Source: Janthinobacterium sp.
GTDB taxonomy: Bacteria; Pseudomonadota; Gammaproteobacteria; Burkholderiales; Burkholderiaceae_D
DNA: 64,000 nucleotides
Assembly: GCF_009923995.1 (NCBI RefSeq)
Contig: NZ_RFSK01000014.1
Location: 1-64,000 of the forward strand
Direction of reading: 5' to 3'
The translations under genes were made by a program, and so were the position numbers. Under the pieces are notes generated by a model that was given only the letters and a program-made list of their open reading frames with translations, was not told the DNA's origin and did not search any database. Shown in pieces: positions 1,559 through 42,293 of the stretch (position 1 is its first letter; each line of letters opens with the position of its first letter).

Positions 1559-4500
1559 TTTTCATACTCCGGTTGTTTTGCCCAGGCATATGCCTTGGTG
1601 GATTTGTCGATGCCGGCGACCACGCGATTGGCGGCCTTGTCGTTCGATTCGACGGTGGCGCGGATTGCGGCGCCAGTCTGCTTATCCTGGTCGGCACGCA
1701 AGCCTTTGACCTCCTCGCGCAGGCTCTTGATCTCGACTACCAGGGCATCGGTATTGCCGCCGCCCTGGCTTGGCGCGCCACCGAAATAGCGGCGCATGGC
1801 CGCCGCCGCTGGCGCATCGACCACCACCTCGCCCCGGTGCAGCTCGGCCGCATACCCATCGAACGGCACGCTGGCCAGGCCGCCGGCATGGGAACCGTCG
1901 AACTGCACGCCGAGGCCAGTCGCCGTACCCATCGCCGCATGCAGGTTGGCGATGGCTTGCGCCACCGTCAGCACGCTGTCGTTGATGGTGATCAGGCCCG
2001 ATACCTGCGCCGTCAGGGCATCCAGGCTGGCCTGCTGCACGTCGACCTGCATGCCCGCCCATTTCAGCGCCTCGTCGTTGGCCGCCATCACGCGGGCGTA
2101 ATCGGCCACATACTTGGCATCCGAGGCGTTGACCACCTGCGAGGCAGTCAGGAACGCCTGTTCGGCAGCCGACAGGCCCGACTGCGCCGTCGTGTCGCCG
2201 GCATTCGCTGCCGCCAGGGTCTTCTCGAACTGGGCCCGTGCCTCGGCATACTTCTGCTCCGGCGTCAGCGTCGACTGCGCACCCAGGGCCATGCTGGCGT
2301 TCAGGCCGTTGAGCGTGGTCACCCACGACTTCGACTTGTCCAGCGCCGTCTTGGCCGCCGCCGATTCCGTGTCGTAGGCCTTGGCCAGTGCATCCTTGGC
2401 CGATACCACGGCCTTGGCTGCCTGCACCTGGTCGAACAGTGCACGGTTGACGTCGGCGATGCCGGCGCGCTGGATGGCCAGCAGCTGCGTTTCGCTTTTC
2501 GTCAATTCATTCAGCTGTTGCTGCAGGTCGCGCCGCTCGCTGGCGATTTCACTGGCTGTTTTCTCAACGGCAACAAAATCACCAGTCGCCGCAGCAAGCG
2601 CGGCGGTATATTCAGCATATTTTTTGAATGGTTCAGCCAACGAGATCAGCTGCGCATACATCGCCTGGCCTGCGGCCGTATTCAGGTCCTGCGCCAACAC
2701 CAGGGCCTTGAACTGCTCGACCGTGGTCACGCCCGACTGCCCCAGCTTGCCCATGGCGTCGTTCACCGATTTGGTAATCGGCGCCATGCGCTCGGCCTCG
2801 GTCAGGAAGTTCTCGACGAAGAAGCCGGTACCGCTGGTCAGCTTGTCGAGACCGCCGGCCGCAGCGATCAGGCTTTCGCTGAGGGCCACCGCGCCCAGGC
2901 CGGTGGTGTTGAACGACTTGCCCAACACGACCAGCACGTCGGACACCTGCATGTAATCGTTGGTGACGCGCACCAACGTCTCCAGGTAGCCCTCGCCCAC
3001 CGCCTGATACTGCTGCAGGCCGGCCACACCAAACTTGGCCATGTCGTCGCCCAGCTTGGAAAAGGCCGTTTCCAGGGCTTTTTGCTGTTCCTCGCCAGTC
3101 AAATCCTTCAGGCTGATCTTGCCCAGGTCGACCACAAAGGTATTGAGCTTGGCGTTGAAGGCTTCGCCGCCCAGGCCCAGCACGCCGGCCGCGCTGCGGA
3201 TGGTGTCGCCCATGCTGCTGATGATCATGCTGAACTGCTGATTCATTTCATCCGACAGCGCGGTGGTCTCGGTGCTATTTTTGCTGCTGTACGAAATACC
3301 AAACGCCTTTTTTGTTTTGTTGACGTCGGCGTAGGCCTGGGCAGTGAAGCCAACGGCATCTACATTGCCAAGCGACGTTGCCTTGCCGGTAATACCCTGG
3401 TCGAGTATCGACGTCTTGGTATTGAATAGTTTCGATACGACAGACCCGATCAACGCGCCTGCAATCGTGCCGGCAATGGTACCTACTGGCCCGAACACCG
3501 AACCCAGGCCGCCGCCAATCGACGCACCGCCGGCGGCGCCAAGTAACGTACCGACCGTGCCGCCAAGCACATTCGTGCCTGTCTGCACGCCAGCAGCGGC
3601 ACCACCGCCTTCGGCAACCACACCGGAGCGCGCCAAAAGTCCGGCCAGGTTGCCGATGCCGGCCACCATCTGCTTGAGGGATGAATCCATCGAAATGGTG
3701 TGCGCCAGGCCAAGACCGCTGTTTTTCTCCATGATGGCCAGCGAGTGGGCAATCGATTCCGATTTTGCGGACGAGTCGCCCAGCACCGTGCCGGTGCCCG
3801 TGGCAGCCTGACGGTCCTTGGCTGTCGTGTCCGATCCGCCGCTGACGCCGCCGATGGCGACGCCGAGCCCGGCAACAATTGCCGCCATGGCCGCCATTCG
3901 GGCAAAGGCCGAGTAAGGATCGCCCTCCCCTTGCGTCAGCACGGCATTAATACCCTTGACGACCGTCAATGCCACTTCCGCCGCATGCATTACCTGCGAG
4001 GCAGCCGCCATAGCCTGGTAGCCTTTTGATCCCTCGCTGAAAAAGCCTTGAGCCGCCGTGGTCATATCCGCGTACGACTTCAGTTGCGCAGTGGTGCCGG
4101 ACAGGTGCGCCTGGTTAATAGCATCGATCTTGTCTGGATTGTCGTCGCTCAGTTTCTTAGCCTCGCGCAGCTCTTTCTGCGCACGCAATTGCCCTGCGAC
4201 ACCTTCGCTATAGGCCTTGAACATTTGGCCGATTGCCTTACCTCCACTGCCGAATGCCGTGGACAGGCTGTCAGCAATAGACTTCCCAGCGCGGTCCCAG
4301 TCCTTGATGGCTTGGTTGGCGAGGTTTTCCATGTGCTTTGCGTCGCTTTGCGCGTCCAGCCCTTGCGCCAGACGCGCGCGCGCAGTGCGCTGGTCCTCCA
4401 GATACTTCAAGATGGCAGGCGCCTGCGCCAGCTCCGCGTCCGTCGCACCTGCTGCGGCTTGGCCGGCCATGAACTGCTTCTGGTATGCGATGGCCAGGTC

Positions 4501-7119
4501 CAGCTGCGCTACCGCCTCGCGCTCGATTGAGCCGCGCGAGACTTCGCGGCCACGATTTGCCTCCTCGATCTTTTGCGCTTCCTGGCTCAGGCCGGAAATG
4601 TATTTATTAATGGCTGCATCAGATGCCTCGCCGATGGCCTCCTTGCGCAGCATTTCTTCTGCGTTGAGCAACTGGATCGCCCTATCCGATTGCGCCTCGG
4701 CAGCCGCGCGCTTGCCGATCAGGTCATTGATCTGCTTGGCATGTTTTGCAGCCTCAGCTTCCGTTGCACTGTGATGCGCGCGCAAAGCGGCAATCTGTAC
4801 CGTGTAGCCGCCAATTTCCTCGGCGGCGGTAGCTTTTGCATAATCGCGCTTATTTTTAAAATATTCCTCATCGCCCAAACGACCGGCGTTGTGGAACATC
4901 TCGTTATATTTGGCCAGTTGGTCAATCATGGCCTTTTCGGCATTGACATCATCCTGGACGCGCGCCAAGCGATCCGCCATTTCGGTGTTCTCGACCTGAT
5001 TGACCTTCGTTGCGGTGGGCTTTTTGGAGAATTCCTTGATGGTGGCAAAGCGGCGCGCCTCGATGGCTTCCGGCGTGATCATCGCTTGAATAAGCGGATC
5101 ATTCGATTTCAAATCGATGAGCCCTTGCTCAGTCCTCCGATTTTTCTCCAGTTCGACATTCAGCCGTCCAAGCGACTCCTCTTTGCGCTTATCGTCAGCG
5201 GCTTGCATACGTTGCATGTCATGCATCAGAGCCGATTTTTTCTGCTGCTCATCGCCCTGCGCAATAGCTTGCGCTTCGGCAATATTCAGTTTTTCAACAG
5301 CTGCCGTTAATCCCAGGACAATTTTAGTGCGCGTCGCATCCATTTCTGGCGAGATGGTTCCCGGCGCCCGGCCAAGGCGAACATTGCTTTCTTCCAGTTG
5401 CTGGTCGAAGTGACTCAGGCGGAAACTGTAAGCGTCCACATCCTTGGCTAATGAACCTTTCTTGGCGAAGTCACCGATTGCGGACATAGCCTCACCAATA
5501 GCCTCGGTGACACCATGCCAAGCGGTTGCCACCGATCCAAGATTTTTTACCATCTTCTCAGCACCGTCTTTTGTTGCCTTTGCAAATTCTTCTGTTGCCA
5601 AAGCGGATGCTGCCTTTTGCTCCCCTTCTTTTTCCAAGGCGCGAATATGCGCAAATACTTCGATGGTCAAAAAGTGATAAGTGTCGTCAAGCTTCAGTGC
5701 AGCACGAGTAATTGCTTCCGTCGAGCGGGCACCATTGCCCGTCATTTGCACAGCCAGCGACTCAAATTCTGCAATGGTCTTTTTAATGGAACTGCTCCCG
5801 GCATGCTCAAGTGCAATGACGGCATCGGAGATATAGGCAATCTGGTCTCCGGTAAATTTACCGGTACCAGCCAGCTCAGTGACGACCTTTTTTGCTTCGC
5901 GAATACTTCCGCCAGCCTCGGTCGCCGCATGCGCCATCTCATTCAGCCTATCGCTCGTCACGCCGGCATAGTTGTTGGTCGAGATCAGGGCATTGTTCAT
6001 TTCGCGCTGCTCGCTGGCACCTTTAATCATCGCGTAGGCAACCGTGCCAAGTGCGCCAGCAAAGGTCAGCGCAGCCAAGCCGGCGGCGCTGAACAGGAGG
6101 CCTGCAGCGCCGGTCTGCTCACCTAGCACCATCATCGACCCGCCGAAACGCTGGAATTGCCCCTGGCTCAGCTCATGGGCGAGCACCAGCAGTTCGCGCT
6201 TAGCGCTCGCCGATTGAAAACTCAGGCCCTCCATGTGGCCGCCCGCCGACTTCGCGCCGGCGCCCGCCTCGGCCAGCTTATTGATCAGCGGTGAAGCGGC
6301 TTCGGATACACCCAACTGGGCGGCACGGTAGATCTGTAGCTGCTGGGTCGTCATGCCTAGCGTGGCAACCTGGTCTTGCAGGCTTTTGATAAAGCGATCA
6401 CCTGCCTGGGCGGCGCGGTCCTGCGCACCGGCAGCATCGCGAGCAGCCCGCTCTTCGCGGTGCATCGCATCGATGCTATTGCCCAGGGCTGCCGCCTTGG
6501 TCTGAGCTGCGCTGCCCAAGCCCAATTCGGCGGCGCGATAGCGCTCCAGTTCGCCGCGCGCCATGCCGAAAGTGTCGATCTCGCGCTGCAGCTCAAGCAA
6601 CATTCGGTGGTTGGACTCTTCCAGAGTGCGCGCAGCGTCGGCGGCCTGCCGCATGATGCGGGTCGTGTCGGCCATCGCACCGTTGTAGTCAGCCTGCTTC
6701 TTCCAGGTGCGTTCAGCTGCGTTACCGAGACCATCAATTCCAGCGGCGGCCGCCTCGCTGCTACGCCAGACTCCCATCGACGAACCCATGAACCCGTCGA
6801 GCGTGTTGCTGCCGCCGAGGAAGACAGTGCGAATGCGGGTGGCGGTAGCGCCCATCGCGTCGATAGAAGCGGTCGCAGCATCCACCTTTTGGACCACGCG
6901 CGCGCCTGCCTCGCCCACAGCATCGACAGCGGCTGCGCCTTCCGTAGTTTTGCCCTTGGCGTCCGCGCTCGCCTTGCCAAGTTTGTCTATGGCCGTCGTC
7001 GCGCTGTCGACCTTCTTCTCGACACTCTCACTGGCGGCGCCGAGGCGATCCATGGCCTGGGCGCCCTGCTCCAGTTGGCGCGTGTCAATCGAAAGGCCAA
7101 GCTCGGCGATATCAGGCAT
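1555..7119 (-). CDS. phage tail tape measure protein
   Basis: At 1854 residues this is the largest gene of the window, the usual signature of the tape measure. It fixes tail length during assembly and is thought to be extruded with the DNA. The sequence is Ala/Lys/Gln/Glu-rich and mainly helical, with long heptad-like stretches (about residues 1-300 and 600-950), a hydrophobic Gly/Ala segment near residues 330-370, another Gly-rich hydrophobic segment near 1050-1250, and a coiled C-terminal part. The common rule of about 0.15 nm per residue would give a long flexible tail of roughly 270 nm (inference). It starts at ATG 7119, overlapping the TAA of the tail chaperone GT frame by one base (TAATG). 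Confidence 0.93.
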   Translation of the reverse strand: MPDIAELGLSIDTRQLEQGAQAMDRLGAASESVEKKVDSATTAIDKLGKASADAKGKTTEGAAAVDAVGEAGARVVQKVDAATASIDAMGATATRIRTVFLGGSNTLDGFMGSSMGVWRSSEAAAAGIDGLGNAAERTWKKQADYNGAMADTTRIMRQAADAARTLEESNHRMLLELQREIDTFGMARGELERYRAAELGLGSAAQTKAAALGNSIDAMHREERAARDAAGAQDRAAQAGDRFIKSLQDQVATLGMTTQQLQIYRAAQLGVSEAASPLINKLAEAGAGAKSAGGHMEGLSFQSASAKRELLVLAHELSQGQFQRFGGSMMVLGEQTGAAGLLFSAAGLAALTFAGALGTVAYAMIKGASEQREMNNALISTNNYAGVTSDRLNEMAHAATEAGGSIREAKKVVTELAGTGKFTGDQIAYISDAVIALEHAGSSSIKKTIAEFESLAVQMTGNGARSTEAITRAALKLDDTYHFLTIEVFAHIRALEKEGEQKAASALATEEFAKATKDGAEKMVKNLGSVATAWHGVTEAIGEAMSAIGDFAKKGSLAKDVDAYSFRLSHFDQQLEESNVRLGRAPGTISPEMDATRTKIVLGLTAAVEKLNIAEAQAIAQGDEQQKKSALMHDMQRMQAADDKRKEESLGRLNVELEKNRRTEQGLIDLKSNDPLIQAMITPEAIEARRFATIKEFSKKPTATKVNQVENTEMADRLARVQDDVNAEKAMIDQLAKYNEMFHNAGRLGDEEYFKNKRDYAKATAAEEIGGYTVQIAALRAHHSATEAEAAKHAKQINDLIGKRAAAEAQSDRAIQLLNAEEMLRKEAIGEASDAAINKYISGLSQEAQKIEEANRGREVSRGSIEREAVAQLDLAIAYQKQFMAGQAAAGATDAELAQAPAILKYLEDQRTARARLAQGLDAQSDAKHMENLANQAIKDWDRAGKSIADSLSTAFGSGGKAIGQMFKAYSEGVAGQLRAQKELREAKKLSDDNPDKIDAINQAHLSGTTAQLKSYADMTTAAQGFFSEGSKGYQAMAAASQVMHAAEVALTVVKGINAVLTQGEGDPYSAFARMAAMAAIVAGLGVAIGGVSGGSDTTAKDRQAATGTGTVLGDSSAKSESIAHSLAIMEKNSGLGLAHTISMDSSLKQMVAGIGNLAGLLARSGVVAEGGGAAAGVQTGTNVLGGTVGTLLGAAGGASIGGGLGSVFGPVGTIAGTIAGALIGSVVSKLFNTKTSILDQGITGKATSLGNVDAVGFTAQAYADVNKTKKAFGISYSSKNSTETTALSDEMNQQFSMIISSMGDTIRSAAGVLGLGGEAFNAKLNTFVVDLGKISLKDLTGEEQQKALETAFSKLGDDMAKFGVAGLQQYQAVGEGYLETLVRVTNDYMQVSDVLVVLGKSFNTTGLGAVALSESLIAAAGGLDKLTSGTGFFVENFLTEAERMAPITKSVNDAMGKLGQSGVTTVEQFKALVLAQDLNTAAGQAMYAQLISLAEPFKKYAEYTAALAAATGDFVAVEKTASEIASERRDLQQQLNELTKSETQLLAIQRAGIADVNRALFDQVQAAKAVVSAKDALAKAYDTESAAAKTALDKSKSWVTTLNGLNASMALGAQSTLTPEQKYAEARAQFEKTLAAANAGDTTAQSGLSAAEQAFLTASQVVNASDAKYVADYARVMAANDEALKWAGMQVDVQQASLDALTAQVSGLITINDSVLTVAQAIANLHAAMGTATGLGVQFDGSHAGGLASVPFDGYAAELHRGEVVVDAPAAAAMRRYFGGAPSQGGGNTDALVVEIKSLREEVKGLRADQDKQTGAAIRATVESNDKAANRVVAGIDKSTKAYAWAKQPEYEK

Positions 7120-7475
7120 TATTTTTCCTTCTTGTTTTGGTGATAAATAAACAGCGCATCGAGGCGATCGATCACGCCCTCTTCGAACGGATCGAAGCGG
7201 ACACCGTGGCGCGCCTGCCAGGCTAGTATTTCAGCGCTGGTGAGCGCGTTCACGGCCATACCGCACTGGCGCTTCTGGTTTATCTGGGTGAACCAGGTCC
7301 AGATGTAGGCCAGCTCGGGCGGCAGCTGCGGCACCGCTGGCGCCTCGGGCGCCCGGTAAAGCGGGTTTTGCCGGGCCGTATCCAGGTGGTCGCCCTTGGC
7401 ATTGCCATCGCCTGCCGCTGCCGCACGATCAAACAAGTGATCGGCGTACAGCAGCAGGGCCTGGGTTAGACCTTC
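7119..7475 (-). CDS. tail assembly chaperone, GT (frameshift) part
   Basis: Downstream half of a lambda G/GT-type chaperone pair. The frame is open from the slippery heptamer at 7481-7475 to the TAA at 7121-7119 and lies exactly -1 relative to the upstream G gene. Slippage would give a G-T fusion of about 271 residues: 153 from G plus 118 from this frame. There is no ATG and no good ribosome site at the head of the frame (the only start-like codon, TTG at 7436, lacks one), which argues for production by frameshift. In lambda the T part binds the tail tube protein while G binds the tape measure; the gene order here (tube, G, GT, tape measure) is the same. Confidence 0.85.
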   Translation of the reverse strand, partial: EGLTQALLLYADHLFDRAAAAGDGNAKGDHLDTARQNPLYRAPEAPAVPQLPPELAYIWTWFTQINQKRQCGMAVNALTSAEILAWQARHGVRFDPFEEGVIDRLDALFIYHQNKKEK

Positions 7476-7933
7476 AAAAAATTGGCGTCGTTTTCCAGGG
7501 CGGCCGTAACACGGTCCTGCCAGGTCGGGTATTTGTCGAACGCCGTGGCGATCAGGCCCTTGTCGAACGGCACGACGGCGCCGTTGCTGGTGAAGCCGTA
7601 CCAGTCGACGGCCACGGCCAGCGCCAGGCGCTTCTGGTTGTCATCGATGACGTGCACCAGCTGATCCGCACCTTCGTCCGTCGAGGCATCGATGGCGGTC
7701 TTGCGCTTGGCCGACTTCTTGTAGCCTTCGGCGCGCACGGCGTGGCTTTCCTTGCGGTACTCGTCGGAGTTCTTGCCGACGATGCGGATACCGGCCACAG
7801 GCTCGCCGTCGGCGTCGAAGATCACGGGCACGTCGAAGGTCACGCGCGCGGCTGGCGCGGACAGGTTGGCGATATCGAAACCGACGACTGCCAAGGCTTG
7901 AGCGGCGTTCAGGGATGTTTGGGTGGTGTTCAT
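7466..7933 (-). CDS. tail assembly chaperone, G part
   Basis: A 155-residue protein from ATG 7933 to TAA 7468-7466. A longer reading to 8179 would run back into the tail-tube gene and has no ribosome site, so the start at 7933, after the tube-gene terminator, is preferred. Size, position between tail tube and tape measure, and the slippery heptamer three codons before its stop identify it as the G-type tail assembly chaperone. These proteins coat the tape measure before tube polymerisation and are absent from the virion. Sequence resemblance to any named family is low, as is usual for this group. Confidence 0.85.
   Translation of the reverse strand: MNTTQTSLNAAQALAVVGFDIANLSAPAARVTFDVPVIFDADGEPVAGIRIVGKNSDEYRKESHAVRAEGYKKSAKRKTAIDASTDEGADQLVHVIDDNQKRLALAVAVDWYGFTSNGAVVPFDKGLIATAFDKYPTWQDRVTAALENDANFLKV
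7475..7481 (-). promoter_or_regulatory. programmed -1 ribosomal frameshift site
   Basis: On the minus strand the end of the G gene reads AAT TTT TTG AAG GTC TAA. The heptamer T-TTT-TTG fits the X-XXY-YYZ slippery rule in the zero frame and sits three codons before the stop. The -1 frame is then open through the whole downstream T frame, so the arrangement works like the lambda G/GT switch (which uses GGGAAAG). No strong pseudoknot is obvious downstream. Confidence 0.85.
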
Positions 7934-8031
7934 GGGTAATGCCTTTCGTGGGGTGGAGATATGTGCCCGTGCCGGCCGCCGCGCCCACGAAGGCGACAGC
8001 GACCGGTCGGTGCTGGGGTGGCGCTTGCGCC

Positions 8032-8059
8032 AAAAAGAAAGCCCGGCGCGCGGCCGGGC
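8032..8059 (-). terminator. rho-independent terminator after tail tube gene
   Basis: On the minus strand a GCCCGG / CCGGGC hairpin (8059-8041, 7-base loop) is followed by a T-rich run (8040-8032). It lies between the tail tube stop (8067) and the tail chaperone start (7933). A partial terminator here would keep tube protein in excess over the chaperone and tape measure. Confidence 0.75.
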
Positions 8060-8066
8060 GGGAGGG

Positions 8067-9269
8067 TTACAGGCTGGTGTCTTGAAACGCCACGGTCGTC
8101 GCCTCGTGCTGCGCGTCGGCGCCCTGATAGCGCAGGATGTCGAACGCGCAGGTGACGATCTTGTTTTTCTCGCCATCATCGACTTTCGCCGAAGTGATCT
8201 TGATGCGGCCCATGGCGATCGTCATAACCTCGGCCAACGGCGCCGTGCTGGCCGCCATGGCATAGGCCAGCGACAGTTCGACTTCCTGTTTGAAGTAGTC
8301 AATGTATGCCGAGTCCTGCATCAACACCGTGAACTGGCCACTGCCCAGCACCTTGCCGCGCGAGGCGGCCGTAGCGAACTTGGAGCCGATCACGGGATCG
8401 ATCTTGACTTGGCCATCCAGCGACAGCGACATGCCGGTGCAGATCTGCGACGGGATGCCCCCAACCGACAGCATTGCGGTGGCGCCGGAGAACTTGCCGG
8501 TACCGGGCGTGGACGCTGGCGCCGCGAAATACGCCGCCGGCGTGGTCGGGCCTTCCAGCTTGCCCATCAGGGTAAAGTCCATGCTCGTGATGCCGTTCGG
8601 CTGAACGGCGATATCGACCTTGCTCACCAGCTGGTCGATGAAGCAACGATTCACGGCGATGCCCGGATCCTGCACTTCTGCGGTGAACCAGTCCGTGGTG
8701 TGCCCGGTCAGCGGCGTGAAGCTGCGCTTGCCGGTTGCGGTCACGGTCACCGGATCGCCTTCTACCTTCACCGTCATGGCGCTGCCATCCATGAACTGCC
8801 CCGTCAGCTTCAGCGCCGTGGCCGAGGTGACGAAGAAGTTCTTGCCGTTGTTGGCCGCGCCAGTGGTCAGAAAGCCGCCGATGCGCACCACTGTGCCGGC
8901 GCGGTGGCCATCAGCCAGCCAGGAGCCAGCGCTGCGCGTCAGGCCCGTTGCACCCGATGCGATGGTATTTTGCGCTGCGGTGGTACCGCCGGCCGTGAAG
9001 TCACGGCGCAGCAGTGCAGCCAGCAGCGCGGCGTAGGTGCCGCAGCTGGCCTCGCCCTTGATGGCGCCGGAAGTACGGAAGTTGCCCAGGCGCGTATCGC
9101 TTTGCTGCTGGCTTGGGTCGATCTCATTGCTCGAGTACTTGTCGGCGTCCGTGTCGAACGTAGCGGTCACGCGCGGATAAAGGCGGCCGGCGGCGGCCAA
9201 GGCCTTCGTGCCTTCCGCTGGTTGCTTGCCAATAACGAGCAGGCTGTCGATGCCGTTTGCAGTGGTCAT
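8067..9269 (-). CDS. phage major tail tube protein
   Basis: A 400-residue protein in the slot between tail terminator and tail chaperones, which is the position of the major tail tube subunit. It is rich in Thr, Ser, Gly and beta-prone segments and lacks membrane segments or catalytic motifs. It is larger than lambda gpV, so it may carry an extra surface domain. A hairpin terminator precedes the gene (9317-9295) and another follows it (8059-8032), consistent with a separately tuned, highly expressed structural gene. Start at ATG 9269. Confidence 0.8.
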   Translation of the reverse strand: MTTANGIDSLLVIGKQPAEGTKALAAAGRLYPRVTATFDTDADKYSSNEIDPSQQQSDTRLGNFRTSGAIKGEASCGTYAALLAALLRRDFTAGGTTAAQNTIASGATGLTRSAGSWLADGHRAGTVVRIGGFLTTGAANNGKNFFVTSATALKLTGQFMDGSAMTVKVEGDPVTVTATGKRSFTPLTGHTTDWFTAEVQDPGIAVNRCFIDQLVSKVDIAVQPNGITSMDFTLMGKLEGPTTPAAYFAAPASTPGTGKFSGATAMLSVGGIPSQICTGMSLSLDGQVKIDPVIGSKFATAASRGKVLGSGQFTVLMQDSAYIDYFKQEVELSLAYAMAASTAPLAEVMTIAMGRIKITSAKVDDGEKNKIVTCAFDILRYQGADAQHEATTVAFQDTSL

Positions 9270-37568: not shown

Positions 37569-37706
37569 TTACGGCGGACGCTCACTCGCAGGCAATGCGC
37601 ACCCCTCAAGCGGCACGCCGGGCGGCAGTTGGTGCGGGTCGAGCAGCGGGATGCGCACGATGTCGTCCGCCGGGCGCGGCGGGGAAATGGGGATAAGGCG
37701 GATCAT
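37569..37706 (-). CDS. 45-residue early protein
   Basis: ATG 37706 overlaps the cro-like stop in ATGA; TAA at 37571-37569. The product is proline-rich (MIRLIPISPPRPADDIVRIP). Exact coupling to cro makes translation likely. Function unknown. Confidence 0.55.
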   Translation of the reverse strand: MIRLIPISPPRPADDIVRIPLLDPHQLPPGVPLEGCALPASERPP

Positions 37707-38023
37707 GGCTTGGCGCCCACATCGAAGATGACGTTGTTGGTGTGCGGTTGGTGGCCGACGTGGCCTGGGTCGGGCGCGGGGTCGCTGGCGCGGCGAGTAA
37801 TTGCGCGAGCAAGCGAGCCATCCTCAGGTTTCGCTGTGCGGTCTGCCTCAAGAGAATCGAACACTTTTGGGCGCGCCAGGCGCAAAAACATCAACCTCGC
37901 TGGAGGTATGCCCTCCTTCCGCCACTCCGAGACAGATGGGTCTTTCACGCCACAAAGGCGCGCGGTTTTCGACGTCCCGCCCAGGGCGTCAATGATCTCA
38001 TCGGGCGTTAATTCTTTAGTCAT
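37703..38023 (-). CDS. Cro-like repressor
   Basis: A 106-residue protein divergent from the CI-type repressor. Its first 45 residues form an HTH of Cro/YdaS type: Glu-Ile-Ile-Asp-Ala-Leu-Gly-Gly-Thr-Ser-Lys-Thr-Ala-Arg-Leu-Cys-Gly-Val, then Pro-Ser-Val-Ser-Glu-Trp-Arg-Lys and a buried Pro-Pro-Ala-Arg-Leu. The C-terminal half is polar and may be disordered. Its promoter (38057-38029) contains an operator, and the predicted transcription start falls at or next to the ATG, so the message is probably leaderless. Confidence 0.85.
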   Translation of the reverse strand: MTKELTPDEIIDALGGTSKTARLCGVKDPSVSEWRKEGIPPARLMFLRLARPKVFDSLEADRTAKPEDGSLARAITRRASDPAPDPGHVGHQPHTNNVIFDVGAKP

Positions 38024-38028
38024 GCCTT

Positions 38029-38057
38029 ATTTTAGGCATTCCTAAATTTATTTGCAA
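38029..38057 (-). promoter_or_regulatory. promoter of leftward early operon (PR-like)
   Basis: On the minus strand TTGCAA (38057-38052), 17-base spacer, TAAAAT (38034-38029). The spacer and -10 contain operator 1 (TTAGG-N4-CCTAA). Only five bases separate the -10 from the cro ATG (38023). Confidence 0.75.
38032..38045. promoter_or_regulatory. operator 1, TTAGGCATTCCTAA
   Basis: Perfect palindrome TTAGG-CATT-CCTAA inside the leftward promoter. The same sequence in inverted orientation occurs 4.2 kb away at 42277-42290 inside the rightward early promoter, so both early promoters should answer to the same repressor. Confidence 0.8.
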
Positions 38058-38064
38058 GACATAT

Positions 38065-38078
38065 TTAGGCATAGCTTT
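38065..38078. promoter_or_regulatory. operator 2, half-conserved
   Basis: TTAGG-CATA-GCTTT: one intact half-site, the other degenerate. It lies 33 bp from operator 1 and in the spacer of the presumed repressor promoter (-10 TATAAT at 38082-38087, no good -35). Confidence 0.6.
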
Positions 38079-38089
38079 TCATATAATTG

Positions 38090-38103
38090 TTAGGATTGCC
38101 TAA
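38090..38103. promoter_or_regulatory. operator 3 overlapping repressor start
   Basis: TTAGG-ATTG-CCTAA, a perfect palindrome whose last base is the A of the repressor ATG. It covers the ribosome site (AGGA) and predicted transcription start of the repressor gene, so binding here would give autorepression, as OR3 does in lambda. Confidence 0.75.
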
Positions 38104-38798
38104 TGAATTGGCACAAACGACTTACGCAGGCCCGAGAGGCCAAGGGAATCAAAAAATCAGCTTTTGCGAAGCTGGTAGGGGTGTCCGCGCCCACCGTCAC
38201 GGATTGGGAAAACGGCGATACCAAGATGATCGAGGGCGCCAACCTGATAAAGGTATGCGCGGCATTGGCGATTTCACCTGAGTGGCTGCTCAATGGAATT
38301 GGCGAGCCGAGCAGCAACGCGCTCGCGATCTCGATGGAGCCCCCTAGCAATTTCGACCGAAACGCTACGCCAGCAGCGCTTGGAAGTCGGGCTATACCCA
38401 TCATTTCGGCCATTCAGGCTGGGGCCATGAGGGAAATATCTGTTCCATATCCAGTTGGTAGTGGATATGCCACCGTATTCGTAGATGACAGCTATTCAGG
38501 ATGGGCATTCGGGCTTGAGATCGAGGGCGATTCGATGCTCCCAGATTTCCGTCCGGGCGACATAGTTATCATCGAGCCAGAGTGGGAACCACGGCCAGGA
38601 GAGTGTGTGGCGGCCAAAAATGGCAAGGAAGAGGCAACCTTTAAGAAATATCGCCAACGTGGCACCGATGCGGCCGGCAACGATATTTTTGAATTGGTTC
38701 CATTGAATGAGGACTACCCAACCCTGCGCAGTGATGAGACGCCCCTGAAAATTATCGGTGTCATGGCGGAACACAGAAGAAAAGCTCGTCGGCGATGA
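38103..38798 (+). CDS. cI: CI/LexA-type phage repressor
   Basis: A 231-residue protein. Residues 1-65 are an XRE HTH (Phe-Ala-Lys-Leu-Val-Gly-Val-Ser-Ala-Pro-Thr-Val-Thr-Asp-Trp-Glu-Asn-Gly). The C-terminal half is a Peptidase S24 autoprotease: cleavage site Ala106-Gly107 in Ile-Gln-Ala-Gly-Ala-Met, nucleophile Ser144 in Gly-Asp-Ser-Met, general-base Lys181 in Thr-Phe-Lys-Lys-Tyr. RecA-stimulated cleavage should therefore link induction to DNA damage. The gene diverges from cro over three operator sites and has only an eight- or nine-base predicted leader. Confidence 0.95.
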   Translation: MNWHKRLTQAREAKGIKKSAFAKLVGVSAPTVTDWENGDTKMIEGANLIKVCAALAISPEWLLNGIGEPSSNALAISMEPPSNFDRNATPAALGSRAIPIISAIQAGAMREISVPYPVGSGYATVFVDDSYSGWAFGLEIEGDSMLPDFRPGDIVIIEPEWEPRPGECVAAKNGKEEATFKKYRQRGTDAAGNDIFELVPLNEDYPTLRSDETPLKIIGVMAEHRRKARRR

Positions 38799-38889: not shown

Positions 38890-39759
38890 ATGAAAAAAAT
38901 ATTACTTATTTTGCTACTCTTGAGTAGTTACCACGAACGTCTGAAGGCACAAGATGCGCCGAACGCAAACGCAAAAAAATCAACCGCAGGCAAAAAGACT
39001 TCAGAGCTAAAGCATCCTCAAAAAAAGGCAGGCGACTTCGCAATCTTCTCCAAGGAGCCGTTTGATACGAATGTCGACTCCCTTCCAATTGGCTACCGTG
39101 GGCATAGCTGCATTGAAATTTCAAAGAGGCTTAAGTCATTCAAACTGGAAAAGGATGAATTTGAAGCAACCAAGGTCTACGCCGAGCGCGTCGAACACGT
39201 CAAAACTGAAGTGCTCTATGGCGGGCTAAGCGGCTCCAGCATCCTTTCATTTTCGCCTGACAAGCCAATGCTCATACCGCGTTACGATGCCGACACTGAA
39301 ACTATGAATGTTCGCATTCTTTCTCATGGCAGTAGATCTACCAAGGTTGATGGAAATTTTTATGCTTCTGGCTTGATCAATAGTGAGTTGTCGAACTCGC
39401 GAAACTATATGGGTGAAAATGGATACGGAAAAAAGGTCGAGATTAGAAGTACGGCTTATGAAGTTTGCGGCATTACATTCATCAACATAAACTCCATAAG
39501 TCGATCAGTAGTTATCCCATCGGAATTTTCGTTCAAAATATCTGCTGATGATGCCAGGGCTAATAAGGGCGCTATTGGCGTACTTTACATCGCGACACTT
39601 AACTCGCCATTTATCGCACGGTATGGCGATTACGCCAAGCCTACAATGGATAGCCCTATTGAAATCGTTTGGTCCGGCGACTCCATCGTAACGAGGTTGT
39701 CGCAAGTTTGGCTGTACAGCACTAAAACGGGTCAAATTTTCTCAAAAGAAACTCTGTAA
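38890..39759 (+). CDS. secreted protein in rex position, unknown
   Basis: A 289-residue, A+T-rich gene after the repressor. The N-terminus (MKKILLILLLLSSYHERLKA) is a good Sec signal peptide with likely cleavage after Lys-Ala at 18-20, so the mature part should be periplasmic or exported. Residues 24-50 are Lys/Ala-rich; the rest is a beta-rich domain without Cys pairs or known catalytic motif. AGGACGG precedes the ATG. Together with the kinase pair downstream it occupies the slot of lambda rexAB, where exclusion functions are often found. Function unknown. Confidence 0.7.
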   Translation: MKKILLILLLLSSYHERLKAQDAPNANAKKSTAGKKTSELKHPQKKAGDFAIFSKEPFDTNVDSLPIGYRGHSCIEISKRLKSFKLEKDEFEATKVYAERVEHVKTEVLYGGLSGSSILSFSPDKPMLIPRYDADTETMNVRILSHGSRSTKVDGNFYASGLINSELSNSRNYMGENGYGKKVEIRSTAYEVCGITFININSISRSVVIPSEFSFKISADDARANKGAIGVLYIATLNSPFIARYGDYAKPTMDSPIEIVWSGDSIVTRLSQVWLYSTKTGQIFSKETL

Positions 39760-39967
39760 AAATTCTGCAACGATGCTCGCCCACCATGCGCGCCGTGTGA
39801 TGGGTGCCTGGCCGGCGGCGCCCGCAAGGCCGCGCCCCACCGCAAAAGCAAGCTCACCGCATCGCTCGCGCCGGCGGGTGTGCGGCTGGTGACGCGATTG
39901 CGTGGCTGAAGGTAGTTGCGACTTTGAAAACTGGAAGCCGGGAAATGTGGCATAACAAGAAACAATC
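39760..39967. other. G+C-rich intergenic stretch inside moron cassette
   Basis: About 208 bases without a gene. The first two thirds are markedly G+C-rich (GCGCGCC, GCCGGCGGCGCCCGC), unlike the A+T-rich genes on both sides, with a CCGGCGG/CGCCGGC-type symmetry. There is no clear terminator; a weak promoter for the kinase gene may lie near 39925-39960. The change of composition suggests a recombination joint. Confidence 0.4.
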
Positions 39968-40795
39968 ATGATTACAGTACTTACACAGGATTCGTATAGG
40001 GGGTTTTCTGCTCCATTAACAACTGCGGGCGGCTCGGTAAATGTTGGGGTTCAACCAATCTTTATTGGCCGCGTGCTGTGGCCTGGCAGTTCGTCGCCCG
40101 AGGATGCGGTAATTAAGCTATACCGGAGCGATACGTGCGGTCCAGCAAACGAAGTTATAGGTTACGCAGCAAATGCCGAGCGTGCCGTGAATCAACCCAA
40201 AAAAAGCGCAATCCTTCTTCTGTCAAAAAGAGAGCTGCCCGACTTAGGTATTGATCTAGACGATTTTTTAGACTCCCATACCGGCCTGACAGCGTGCTGG
40301 GCAACTTCGCTTGAGCAGGGCACTCAACCGTTTAAGTTCGTCAGACGACTATCTAGTTTCTCATCAAAAAAATTAACGGCATTCTTCAAAAGTCGATTTT
40401 GTCGCATCCTTGCCGCAGTAGATCATGTGACGGGAAATAACGATCGGCACGATGGTAACTACCTCTACCTAGACGATCTGCAATATTTGGCAATAGACCA
40501 GGGCTGTGTTGGCGGCGGCCTCCGATGGCATACAACTTGGCCAGATAGGCATGCGCGAAATGAACTTTTCCACTTTGCACAGAGCGAGCTTAGCGCGCTT
40601 GACTTTGCCGCCTGGAAGGCAGAGGCGATCATGGAGCACGAACGATCCCAACACGCTTGGTCGCTATTCCTTGGTAAACTGCGGGTCGCGTTGACAGGCA
40701 TCCTAGAGTCAGGCGAGATCGATATGATAGTAGAATACATGCAAGAAAGAGCTGACGGCCCAAAGTTTGCCGTTAGCTGCGGAAAGCTAATTTAA
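39968..40795 (+). CDS. HipA-like kinase
   Basis: A 275-residue protein with the landmarks of the short HipA-like (PI3/4K-like) kinases. Ala-Val-Ile-Lys-Leu-Tyr (Lys50) is the ATP-binding strand; Asn61-Glu-Val-Ile-Gly-Tyr-Ala follows; Gly-Asn-Asn-Asp-Arg-His (156-161) and Asn164 form the catalytic loop, and Ala-Ile-Asp-Gln-Gly (Asp177) the metal-binding DFG equivalent. All residues needed for catalysis appear present. It ends in TAATG with the next gene, implying coupled translation and probably a complex. There is no HipB-like HTH partner, so it is not a standard hipBA module. Substrate unknown. Confidence 0.82.
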   Translation: MITVLTQDSYRGFSAPLTTAGGSVNVGVQPIFIGRVLWPGSSSPEDAVIKLYRSDTCGPANEVIGYAANAERAVNQPKKSAILLLSKRELPDLGIDLDDFLDSHTGLTACWATSLEQGTQPFKFVRRLSSFSSKKLTAFFKSRFCRILAAVDHVTGNNDRHDGNYLYLDDLQYLAIDQGCVGGGLRWHTTWPDRHARNELFHFAQSELSALDFAAWKAEAIMEHERSQHAWSLFLGKLRVALTGILESGEIDMIVEYMQERADGPKFAVSCGKLI

Positions 40796-41640
40796 TGAAT
40801 ATTCTTGAGCTATTGAAACAAGCCACCCCTTCGCCTGAGCCCATGGCTACCGGCGAGTGGGCGACGCTTGCCTTTCGACCTGACCTTGGAAGTCAGCAGG
40901 AATTTATAATCGGGGTCGCCGCAGCAATAAAGGGAGAACGAAAGCCATTCGTAAGGTGGCTACCATCCCTTTCAAAGCTATGCTCGCTCTATGGCGATGC
41001 CATCTCAGGATCAGAGACGAAGGAGCTTCTGCGAGGCTCCGAAATCGCGCTGACCGGTAGCACCCACAGCTCATTTTCCAAAGTTGATAGTGGCACACCT
41101 CATGTGCGCGTTGTGCCTTGTGGATACTTCGCGACAAATGACGTTGAGTTCGAACTGGACGAATTGCTCAAGAGGCAGTCAGGTTTTCTATGGGATGAGA
41201 GGGGAACAAGAGAGAGCCCAATGGACGACGATTGGGCATATTCGCTGATGATCAACGCACTGTCGGAAGTACAACTCCCGAGGGATGTTTTTTTGCCAGC
41301 TAGATCTATTTTTCTTGGTGGGAAAACCCTTAAAGTGGCGCTGGATAATAGCCTCAGTTACGGCAATATTGTTTCCGCGCGATATTCACAGTTCCAAACC
41401 GTCGAGCGGCATATTTTCAAGTCTTTGCGCCAAGTTATGTCGGCTCACAAATTCTCTGGCCGCCATGCACTTCCCGCACTTTTTGTGGTTCTGCCCGAGC
41501 AAGGGACTCCGCTAGAATCTTTACTTTCAAAACGTAGTTCTGACTTACTTTTTGAAATTGAGGACATGGGGGCGATACAATTTTGCGACCCAAACCCAAT
41601 CGAGGTCGCAAAGAAAATAGAGGCTTGGGCAGGGATTTAG
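40795..41640 (+). CDS. partner of HipA-like kinase, unknown
   Basis: A 281-residue protein translationally coupled to the kinase (ATG shares the A of TAATG). Its first 60 residues (Trp-Ala-Thr-Leu-Ala-Phe-Arg-Pro-Asp-Leu, then Phe-Ile-Ile-Gly-Val-Ala) recall DUF3037-type proteins, which are often encoded beside short HipA-like kinases; the resemblance is weak. The rest is mixed alpha/beta without catalytic motif. It may be the antitoxin or the substrate of the kinase. A terminator follows about 100 bases after the stop. Confidence 0.7.
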   Translation: MNILELLKQATPSPEPMATGEWATLAFRPDLGSQQEFIIGVAAAIKGERKPFVRWLPSLSKLCSLYGDAISGSETKELLRGSEIALTGSTHSSFSKVDSGTPHVRVVPCGYFATNDVEFELDELLKRQSGFLWDERGTRESPMDDDWAYSLMINALSEVQLPRDVFLPARSIFLGGKTLKVALDNSLSYGNIVSARYSQFQTVERHIFKSLRQVMSAHKFSGRHALPALFVVLPEQGTPLESLLSKRSSDLLFEIEDMGAIQFCDPNPIEVAKKIEAWAGI

Positions 41641-41742
41641 ATCACCTGTTACAGACGCGATAATCAATTCGCAATGCCCCGCGTTCGCAATCGCGAAATG
41701 GTTGCATGGGCTATCACGGATGGATCACCTCATCGCCAACCG

Positions 41743-41766
41743 CCCCGCCAGCCGGGGTCGTTTTTT
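41743..41766 (+). terminator. rho-independent terminator after kinase pair
   Basis: CCCCG-CCAGC-CGGGG followed by TCGTTTTTT on the plus strand. It closes the repressor / secreted protein / kinase transcription unit before the second operator cluster. Confidence 0.8.
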
Positions 41767-42232: not shown

Positions 42233-42256
42233 CCTAAATTATTTAGGTATCCCGAA
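42233..42256. promoter_or_regulatory. second operator site of rightward promoter
   Basis: TTAGG-TATC-CCGAA (42243-42256) has one perfect and one near-perfect half-site; CCTAA at 42233-42237 faces it in the opposite sense. It lies 34 bp from the main operator, nearly the same distance as operators 1 and 2 at cro. Confidence 0.6.
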
Positions 42257-42264
42257 AATACACC

Positions 42265-42293
42265 TTGACACGATATTTAGGAATGCCTAAACT
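42265..42293 (+). promoter_or_regulatory. rightward early promoter (PL-like) with embedded operator
   Basis: TTGACA (42265-42270), 17-base spacer, TAAACT (42288-42293). The palindrome TTAGG-AATG-CCTAA (42277-42290) lies in the spacer and over the -10, as at the cro promoter. Repressor binding would exclude RNA polymerase. Confidence 0.82.

Follow-up and report, generated by a model that had tools for sequence, protein, structure and literature searches.

A probable diverged clade of the HipA_2 and DUF3037 anti-phage pair in the rex position of a Janthinobacterium prophage

A HipA_2 kinase combined with a DUF3037 protein constitutes an experimentally tested anti-phage pair, known as HipAD, DS-6 or, as a PADLOC candidate, PDC-M66 (PMC12548924, PMC13092281). 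Canonical HipAD defends against Bas51, requires its kinase and is toxic without the DUF3037 protein (PMC12548924). Defence is also lost in a catalytic mutant of DS-6A, and DS-6B is predicted to bind DNA (PMC13092281). These two papers were the only relevant literature that we found on HipAD, HipD, PDC-M66 or DUF3037 in a search that left most subscription journals uncovered, and with the same coverage we found no paper on the rex position of a HipA kinase and DUF3037 pair. In the main text of a 2021 survey of HipA kinases, the words "DUF" and "prophage" do not occur (PMC8262856). In lambda and in Pseudomonas putida P1, the position behind CI is taken by the exclusion genes rexAB; in P. putida, two further genes lie between the repressor and rexAB (PMC12894663). 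Phage-borne kinases proposed or shown to counter superinfection include that of phage 933W and a HipA-family kinase of the 'Gratiaviridae'; by its description, the latter is set apart from the locus studied here, as it lies between portal and capsid genes, together with an ATPase and a glycosyltransferase, and not behind a repressor (PMC8008677). The exclusion genes of phage Fc02 were considered as a possible earlier case and rejected, as they lie upstream of the repressor and the source, in its abstract and passages, names no kinase (PMC9936078); the gut-phage HipA-family kinase of PMC8008677 was likewise set aside, being found among structural genes.

The locus analyzed here lies within a stretch of 64,000 nucleotides of Janthinobacterium sp. 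DNA (the window). The secreted protein, kinase and TAATG-coupled partner are all found between the repressor and the second operator cluster, where the original prediction had placed them, in a lambdoid prophage with the order Cro, operators, CI-S24 repressor, secreted protein, HipA-like kinase, partner, terminator-like hairpin and operators:

37703..38023, (-): Cro-like DNA-binding protein, 106 aa (phrog_8008, 5.4e-14; phrog_409, 1.9e-9)
38029..38057, (-): promoter-like site TTGCAA-17-TAAAAT, pointing to cro and overlying an operator
38032..38045, no strand: operator, exact TTAGGNATNCCTAA, from a motif scan allowing at most one mismatch
38090..38103, no strand: operator, 1 mismatch, abutting the repressor start codon
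38103..38798, (+): CI-like repressor, 231 aa (Pfam HTH_3, 8e-12, and Peptidase_S24, 1.3e-16; phrog_4, 3e-41)
38890..39759, (+): secreted or periplasmic protein, 289 aa, with a Sec-type signal-like start, apparently independent cargo of the slot
39968..40795, (+): HipA-like kinase, 275 aa, probable toxin/effector
40795..41640, (+): DUF3037-like partner, 281 aa, probable antitoxin, with an N-terminal DUF3037-like region and a C-terminal PD-(D/E)XK-like fold
41742..41758, (+): terminator-like hairpin, then CGTTTTTTGC, one of six in the region
42243..42256, no strand: operator, 1 mismatch, from the same scan
42265..42293, (+): promoter-like site TTGACA-17-TAAACT, pointing away from the module and overlying an operator
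42277..42290, no strand: operator, exact, within a 36-nt inverted repeat

The surrounding prophage carries terminase, portal, head and tape-measure genes, RecT, NinB and an integrase (10 ORFs scanned, two without a match). With at most one mismatch, the operator motif occurs at four sites in 64 kb, compared to 0.05 expected, and all of them flank the repressor–kinase module; with up to three mismatches, the 10 matches do not exceed the 9.2 obtained by chance. Both clusters are linked by the 36-nt inverted repeat (38031-38066 / 42256-42291), which is 78% complementary. Promoter-like sites, including the two given above, are not more numerous in the region than in shuffled sequence. The module is A+T-rich, as predicted, with GC contents of 44.1% for the secreted gene, 49.8% for the kinase and 49.6% for the partner versus 59.5% for the window. 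A closing terminator had also been claimed, and a hairpin is indeed present, but the evidence for a terminator is weak, since the region has 6 such hairpins versus 5.5 in shuffles. Tight coupling holds for the kinase and partner, whose stop and start codons overlap as TAATG, but is limited to these two, because a gap of 208 nt (62.5% GC) separates the secreted gene from the kinase.

Scans of the kinase and partner against Pfam, NCBIfam and PADLOC gave no informative match: the kinase had nothing at E <= 1 with the Pfam HipA_2 and PADLOC PDC-M66A models, and the partner did not match DUF3037 or PDC-M66B. HipA_2 was likewise absent from the families matched by 20 members of the kinase clade, as was DUF3037 from those matched by 21 members of the partner clade. 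A sequence search against solved structures yielded no result for the pair, and Foldseek returned nothing below E 0.2 for the partner. In phage records, tblastn with the kinase matched only two Moraxella phages, tblastn with the partner or the secreted protein gave no match, and a DNA-level search gave zero matches. Profile comparison without bridge sequences left the link to HipA_2 and DUF3037 weak or absent. With phages as bridges (Moraxella Mcat18/22 and Pseudomonas D14P), the kinase connected to HipA_2 at 1.1e-10 and 6.3e-8 and the partner to DUF3037 at 4.9e-8 and 1.1e-7, with crossed controls at 0.3 and 0.62. The bridges are direct sequence relatives: by BLAST, the window kinase matches the Moraxella kinase (8e-8) and the kinase of locus L057 (4e-6), the window partner matches the L057 partner (0.001), and PHROG matches tie the window pair to the D14P-type pair (phrog_11186 and phrog_14695). 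The Moraxella partner, in turn, matches PDC-M66B at 2.8e-7 and DUF3037 at 3.9e-4, just under the model cut-off. The D14P and Moraxella pairs also have repressor, kinase and partner in a row, but differ from the window in having only ~20% identity and no intervening gene ahead of the kinase; the D14P kinase even begins within the stop of the repressor gene.

The same slot behind the repressor is thus occupied by the pair in D14P and Mcat18/22, and it is likewise occupied in Escherichia phage PhiR5_1, where the annotated order is Cro, cI, "HipA toxin" and "HipD antitoxin" (HipA_2, 9.7e-77; DUF3037, 7.6e-24), with no gene between cI and the kinase. Rex-position placement is therefore already visible in the public annotation of that record. 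In viral contigs, an S24 repressor precedes the DUF3037 pair by 9-750 nt in 21 of 30 clusters versus 1 of 20 cellular genomes, which is an unmatched comparison, as the two samples were not obtained in the same way. The viral scan used a single short DUF3037 motif; 80 of 89 loci were taken and clustered at 80% identity to give the 30, one of each being tested. The gaps of L071, L074, L080 and L093 are approximate, because they rest on a manually chosen kinase start at about 4260-4270 and the kinase ORFs were seen only later. No S24 match was in place in the other nine clusters (L062, L061, L064, L068, L076, L082, L084, L086 and L114). Direct scanning of L086 revealed an S24/HTH repressor adjoining the kinase (28.2 bits vs 23.3), which would raise the total to 22; an HTH match lies 442 nt upstream in L114 and a weak one 908 nt upstream in L082, while an HTH-like ORF in L064 had no Pfam match.

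Based on the bridged homology and the shared slot in PhiR5_1 and the viral clusters, the window pair is, as judged from sequence, a diverged sister clade of the HipAD-type toxin–antitoxin defence in its usual prophage slot. The expectation of a phage-exclusion or toxin–antitoxin pair in the rex position is thereby supported by analogy, as the relatives are the tested HipAD, DS-6 and PDC-M66 pair and the position recurs. The expectation of an undescribed system is not borne out: this kind of system has been described and named, and what is new is a clade undetected by the Pfam and PADLOC models. The window pair resembles HipAD and DS-6 in comprising two genes with the kinase first, in the start/stop overlap, the lack of HipB, the kinase motifs, the DUF3037 motif region and the placement behind CI (PhiR5_1 and 21/30 viral clusters). 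It differs in lying below Pfam and PADLOC detection and in the kinase being only 14-20% identical to the three canonical HipAD kinases aligned. The C-terminus of the window partner, which resembles a nuclease-like fold, may also differ from the DUF1829 of DS-6B.

Six residues of the kinase (E62, D152, N157, D159, R160 and D177) are invariant across seven very distant kinases, PhiR5_1 HipA among them, in agreement with the claim that its catalytic residues are intact. A kinase fold is predicted, the closest folds being CtkA and PI4KII, although the identity to CtkA and PI4K-type kinases is only 11-12%. The HipA-family fold and catalytic residues are shared with HipBA and HipBST, and a growth-arresting role is likely for the window kinase; unlike those systems, however, it has neither a paired HTH protein HipB nor HipS, and its partner is unrelated and located downstream. 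Indeed, as predicted, no HipB-like partner is present: neither the coupled protein nor the members of its clade scanned had an HTH match in Pfam. The upstream phage repressor does give a weak match to couple_hipB (9.2e-5, 22.3 bits vs a cut-off of 71.7), which represents general HTH resemblance; this protein is of the S24 repressor type and has operators of its own. RexAB shares the position behind CI and would share the exclusion role, with no sign of the same proteins; the names RexA and RexB were absent from matches at E <= 1 in Pfam and PADLOC, which may lack good Rex models. The kinase of phage 933W is named Stk. It belongs to another kinase family than the window kinase and is likened to it by description, not sequence.

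We consider it likely that the pair acts as a HipAD-type toxin–antitoxin defence in the rex position, co-transcribed with the repressor during lysogeny and aborting superinfection. For this clade, we infer the co-transcription with the repressor, the toxicity, the neutralization, the trigger and the target. In the lysogen, the two genes would be transcribed together with the repressor, and the coupled partner, made in step with the kinase, would bind and restrain it. Infection by another phage would produce a signal that frees the kinase; the nuclease-like domain at the C-terminus of the partner might, for instance, contact foreign DNA or the processing of such DNA. The freed kinase would then phosphorylate a host (or phage) protein, such that growth stops, the infection is aborted and the lysogen population is protected; the secreted protein would be separate cargo outside this mechanism. 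A bolder version, which we hold to be rather improbable, makes the partner both antitoxin and sensor: its apparently inactive nuclease-like domain would grip DNA ends or replication structures of the incoming phage and thereby free the kinase, whose target, as the closest folds CtkA and PI4KII suggest, would differ from that of HipA. Temperate phages of many lineages would reserve one slot behind CI for the pair, and in the window's lineage an exchangeable secreted protein would add an outer layer of exclusion.

The kinase and partner behave as a unit. They co-occur at every other locus examined, the partner coming directly after the kinase at all 12 (10 distinct kinase sequences, three Cupriavidus records having one identical kinase gene), and the junctions overlap in all 14 listed pairs (ATGA, GTGA, TGATG or TAATG). 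Moreover, 28 of 48 partner clusters agree with a kinase cluster in the length of the longest contig. Such toxin–antitoxin-like coupling in a lysogenic position would also suit an addiction module, in which cells cured of the prophage are killed or stalled by the freed kinase, phage effects being secondary. The presence of relatives on Cupriavidus plasmids fits this, as does Massilia rubra (L037/L048), where the kinase is split and the partner intact, as expected of a costly kinase (or an assembly error). We nevertheless regard addiction as unlikely: the canonical relatives confer phage defence (PMC12548924, PMC13092281), and relatives also occur beside defence-type genes, such as the AAA_21/AAA_15 ATPase in Massilia L045, where addiction gains little.

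The location inside the immunity region raises another alternative, namely that the pair tunes the prophage's own switch, its partner protein binding at operators or promoters and its kinase modulating the repressor or induction, as proposed for lambda RexA, which biases the lambda switch (PMC11077077). The nuclease-like C-terminal fold of the partner suggests contact with DNA, and DNA binding is predicted for DS-6B (PMC13092281). Yet the pair is still recognizable in sister prophages that have lost alignment to the window across the repressor and left operator region, and it also occurs on chromosomes where no nearby repressor was seen by eye (L033, L036 and L037, i.e., L045, L047 and L048); neither is expected of a switch-specific part. 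Tuning of the switch is therefore very unlikely in our judgement.

With the window pair, a newly named anti-phage pair gains a clade overlooked by standard annotation. The analysis further indicates that temperate phages commonly house the pair in the rex position, and that this placement is not a peculiarity of E. coli. It also sets the secreted protein apart as a second, independent line of cargo. This protein starts with a predicted Sec-type signal, MKKILLILLLLSSYHERLKA|QDAP, according to a crude test that also flags 8 of 54 D14P genes. A signal-peptide-like gene lies between repressor and kinase in all five clade loci behind an S24 repressor (the window, L038, L046, L044 and L039), as would be expected if the secreted protein sensed or blocked DNA entry at the envelope and worked with the pair in a three-gene exclusion system. 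We give this scant credence: the intervening proteins are mutually dissimilar, save L038 with L046, PhiR5_1 has no intervening gene, and the repressor–kinase gap is at most 170 nt in 15 of 21 viral clusters. An extra gene fits in the other six, and some of these intervening genes have a membrane-like start (L070, L074). The window's secreted gene was found at none of the 12 other kinase loci (flanks mostly 8-10 kb; upstream only 2.1-2.4 kb in L034 and L035), and its failure to co-occur had been set beforehand as refuting the three-gene cassette of the original prediction. As it was not found there and as no kinase was seen with its two strong relatives, the secreted gene is, on this distribution, separate cargo. 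Its matches in Pfam and PHROG (0.006 and 0.0016) are weak and were set aside. A protein search found five relatives, and the two strong ones (L150 and L151, from the same genus) have the same phage backbone and slot, with no kinase seen; phages that hold the pair in the slot can be set against sister prophages that share their backbone but have different cargo there.

The window carries prophage genes for a tape measure, head, portal, terminase, RecT, NinB and an integrase, and its immunity region is lambda-like in layout:

37703-38023, leftwards: Cro-like gene
38032 and 38090: predicted operators, first cluster
38103-38798: CI-S24 repressor
38890-39759: predicted secreted protein
39968-40795: HipA-like kinase
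40795-41640: partner, with a predicted nuclease-like domain
3' of the partner, before the second operator cluster: terminator-like hairpin
42243 and 42277: predicted operators, second cluster, with a promoter-like site

Operator matches with at most one mismatch number four in the 64 kb, all at these sites, against 0.05 expected. A TATAAT seen by eye 15 nt before the repressor ATG (38082-38103) suggests by its position that the repressor transcript is nearly leaderless, as is that of lambda. Between the secreted gene and the kinase lie 208 nt (39760-39967) with 62.5% GC, much richer than either gene, in which no promoter-like site was found; this stretch may be a recombination scar.

The unit is the pair of kinase and partner. 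Protein searches returned 65 kinase and 48 partner clusters, and for 28 of the latter the longest contig equals in size that of a kinase cluster. ORFs were called in 17 loci, one of which (L041) holds a 50-residue match only; the other 16, including four duplicates, represent 12 distinct loci but 10 kinase sequences, because the kinase gene is identical in three Cupriavidus records. The partner lies directly 3' of the kinase in all 12. The clade is sparse, with the kinase present in 6/392 genomes of the family, the window's own included, and it was detected in Janthinobacterium, Massilia, Telluria, Duganella, Noviherbaspirillum, Pseudoduganella and Cupriavidus. An S24 repressor precedes the pair on the same strand in five of 13 loci (the window, its sister prophages L038 and L046, and loci L044 and L039); in one further locus, L040, on a viral contig, the repressor-like matches are all weak, and the remainder lie on plasmids or chromosomes.

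The secreted gene stands apart from this pair, and the three-gene cassette of the original prediction is not supported: the gene was found in none of the 12 distinct kinase loci. Its product has five relatives in the protein search, one at 98% identity. Matches occurred in 5/40 genomes of the genus, namely the window's own, two weak and two strong, the last in sister prophages L150 (63% protein identity) and L151 (55%). Both share the window's prophage backbone: the left side of L150 matches it at 81% along 1155 nt and the right side at 77-83%, while L151 matches at 89% along 1363 nt and at 90% along 5878 nt. Upstream of the relative, L151 has a different S24 repressor (7.7e-21), and L150 a repressor-like ORF without a Pfam match plus a LysR-type gene. 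No kinase ORF was seen beside either relative, and neither genome is among the six with the kinase in the family-wide search. L038 and L046, whose backbone is common with the window (87-93% over matches >600 nt), retain the kinase pair at 56% protein identity, with a different repressor and a different signal-peptide-like protein. Between the repressor and the second operator cluster there is therefore a mosaic cargo site. In L150 (reverse complement, 6478-8913) it holds the LysR-type gene, the relative of the secreted protein and another ORF whose start, judged by eye, is signal-peptide-like.

The position of the window's pair is a common one for such pairs in temperate phages. Canonical HipA_2 kinase and DUF3037 pairs on viral contigs (80 of 89 loci retained) formed 30 clusters, and in every representative a kinase-sized ORF lies upstream of the DUF3037 gene. 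Of these representatives, 21 have an S24 repressor domain upstream on the same strand at a distance of 9-750 nt, and in 15 of the 21 the gap is <=170 nt; a direct scan added a repressor in one more viral locus, L086. Among cellular genomes with DUF3037, which were sampled differently from the viral set, an S24 gene adjoins the pair in 1/20 (G609). Escherichia phage PhiR5_1, annotated in the order Cro, cI, HipA toxin, HipD antitoxin, Kil, Gam, Bet, is a public precedent. Viral contigs often carry pairs of HipA_2 and DUF3037 genes (L061-L140), for which the rex position looks like a standard home.

Direct profile searches of the clade for models of HipAD, the canonical pair (DS-6, PDC-M66), gave no match. 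Bridging pairs were found in Moraxella phages Mcat18/22, Pseudomonas phage D14P and nine related viral contigs, with repressor, kinase and partner in a row. The window's kinase and partner match phrog_11186 (1.2e-9) and phrog_14695 (8.2e-5), as do those of D14P (1.3e-19 and 3.9e-19). The Moraxella partner matches PDC-M66B (2.8e-7) and, just under the cut-off, DUF3037 (3.9e-4); the kinases of D14P and the related contig L057 reach HipA_2 at ~4e-4, under the cut-off, the L057 partner reaches DUF3037 at 0.021, and the D14P partner has no Pfam match. With the bridges included, profile comparison linked the kinases to HipA_2 (1.1e-10 and 6.3e-8) and the partners to DUF3037 (4.9e-8 and 1.1e-7, one of these two over nearly the full length), and the crossed controls gave 0.3 and 0.62; without the bridges it was weak or non-significant. 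These comparisons point to a diverged sister clade of HipAD that would work like it, and not to a member by curated models. In D14P-type Pseudomonas prophages (L042:4941-4963, L049-L057), the kinase gene begins before the repressor gene has ended, so that translation of the two may be coupled.

For the canonical pair, the parts of PMC12548924 that concern it report that kinase deletion abolishes defence against Bas51 and that deleting DUF3037 is toxic; those of PMC13092281 that concern DS-6 report loss of defence in a DS-6A catalytic mutant and predict kinase-partner and partner-DNA contacts. Because it has homology and layout in common with that pair, the window's pair is most likely an abortive-infection toxin-antitoxin switch. 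By this analogy, it would be expressed in the lysogen together with the repressor.

In Massilia rubra (L037:8001-8686, L048) the kinase is split into two overlapping ORFs beside an intact partner, perhaps as a natural toxin-off allele or through an error of assembly. On a Massilia chromosome the pair has a defence-like neighbourhood, adjoining a gene for a 644-aa AAA_15/AAA_21 ATPase (L045:4494-6428; Pfam 3e-15 and 1.5e-14). Near the pair on a Cupriavidus taiwanensis plasmid (L002:13250-20545), the annotation lists an ImmA/IrrE peptidase with an HTH regulator, multiubiquitin, ThiF and DUF6527 genes, and an SNF2 protein.
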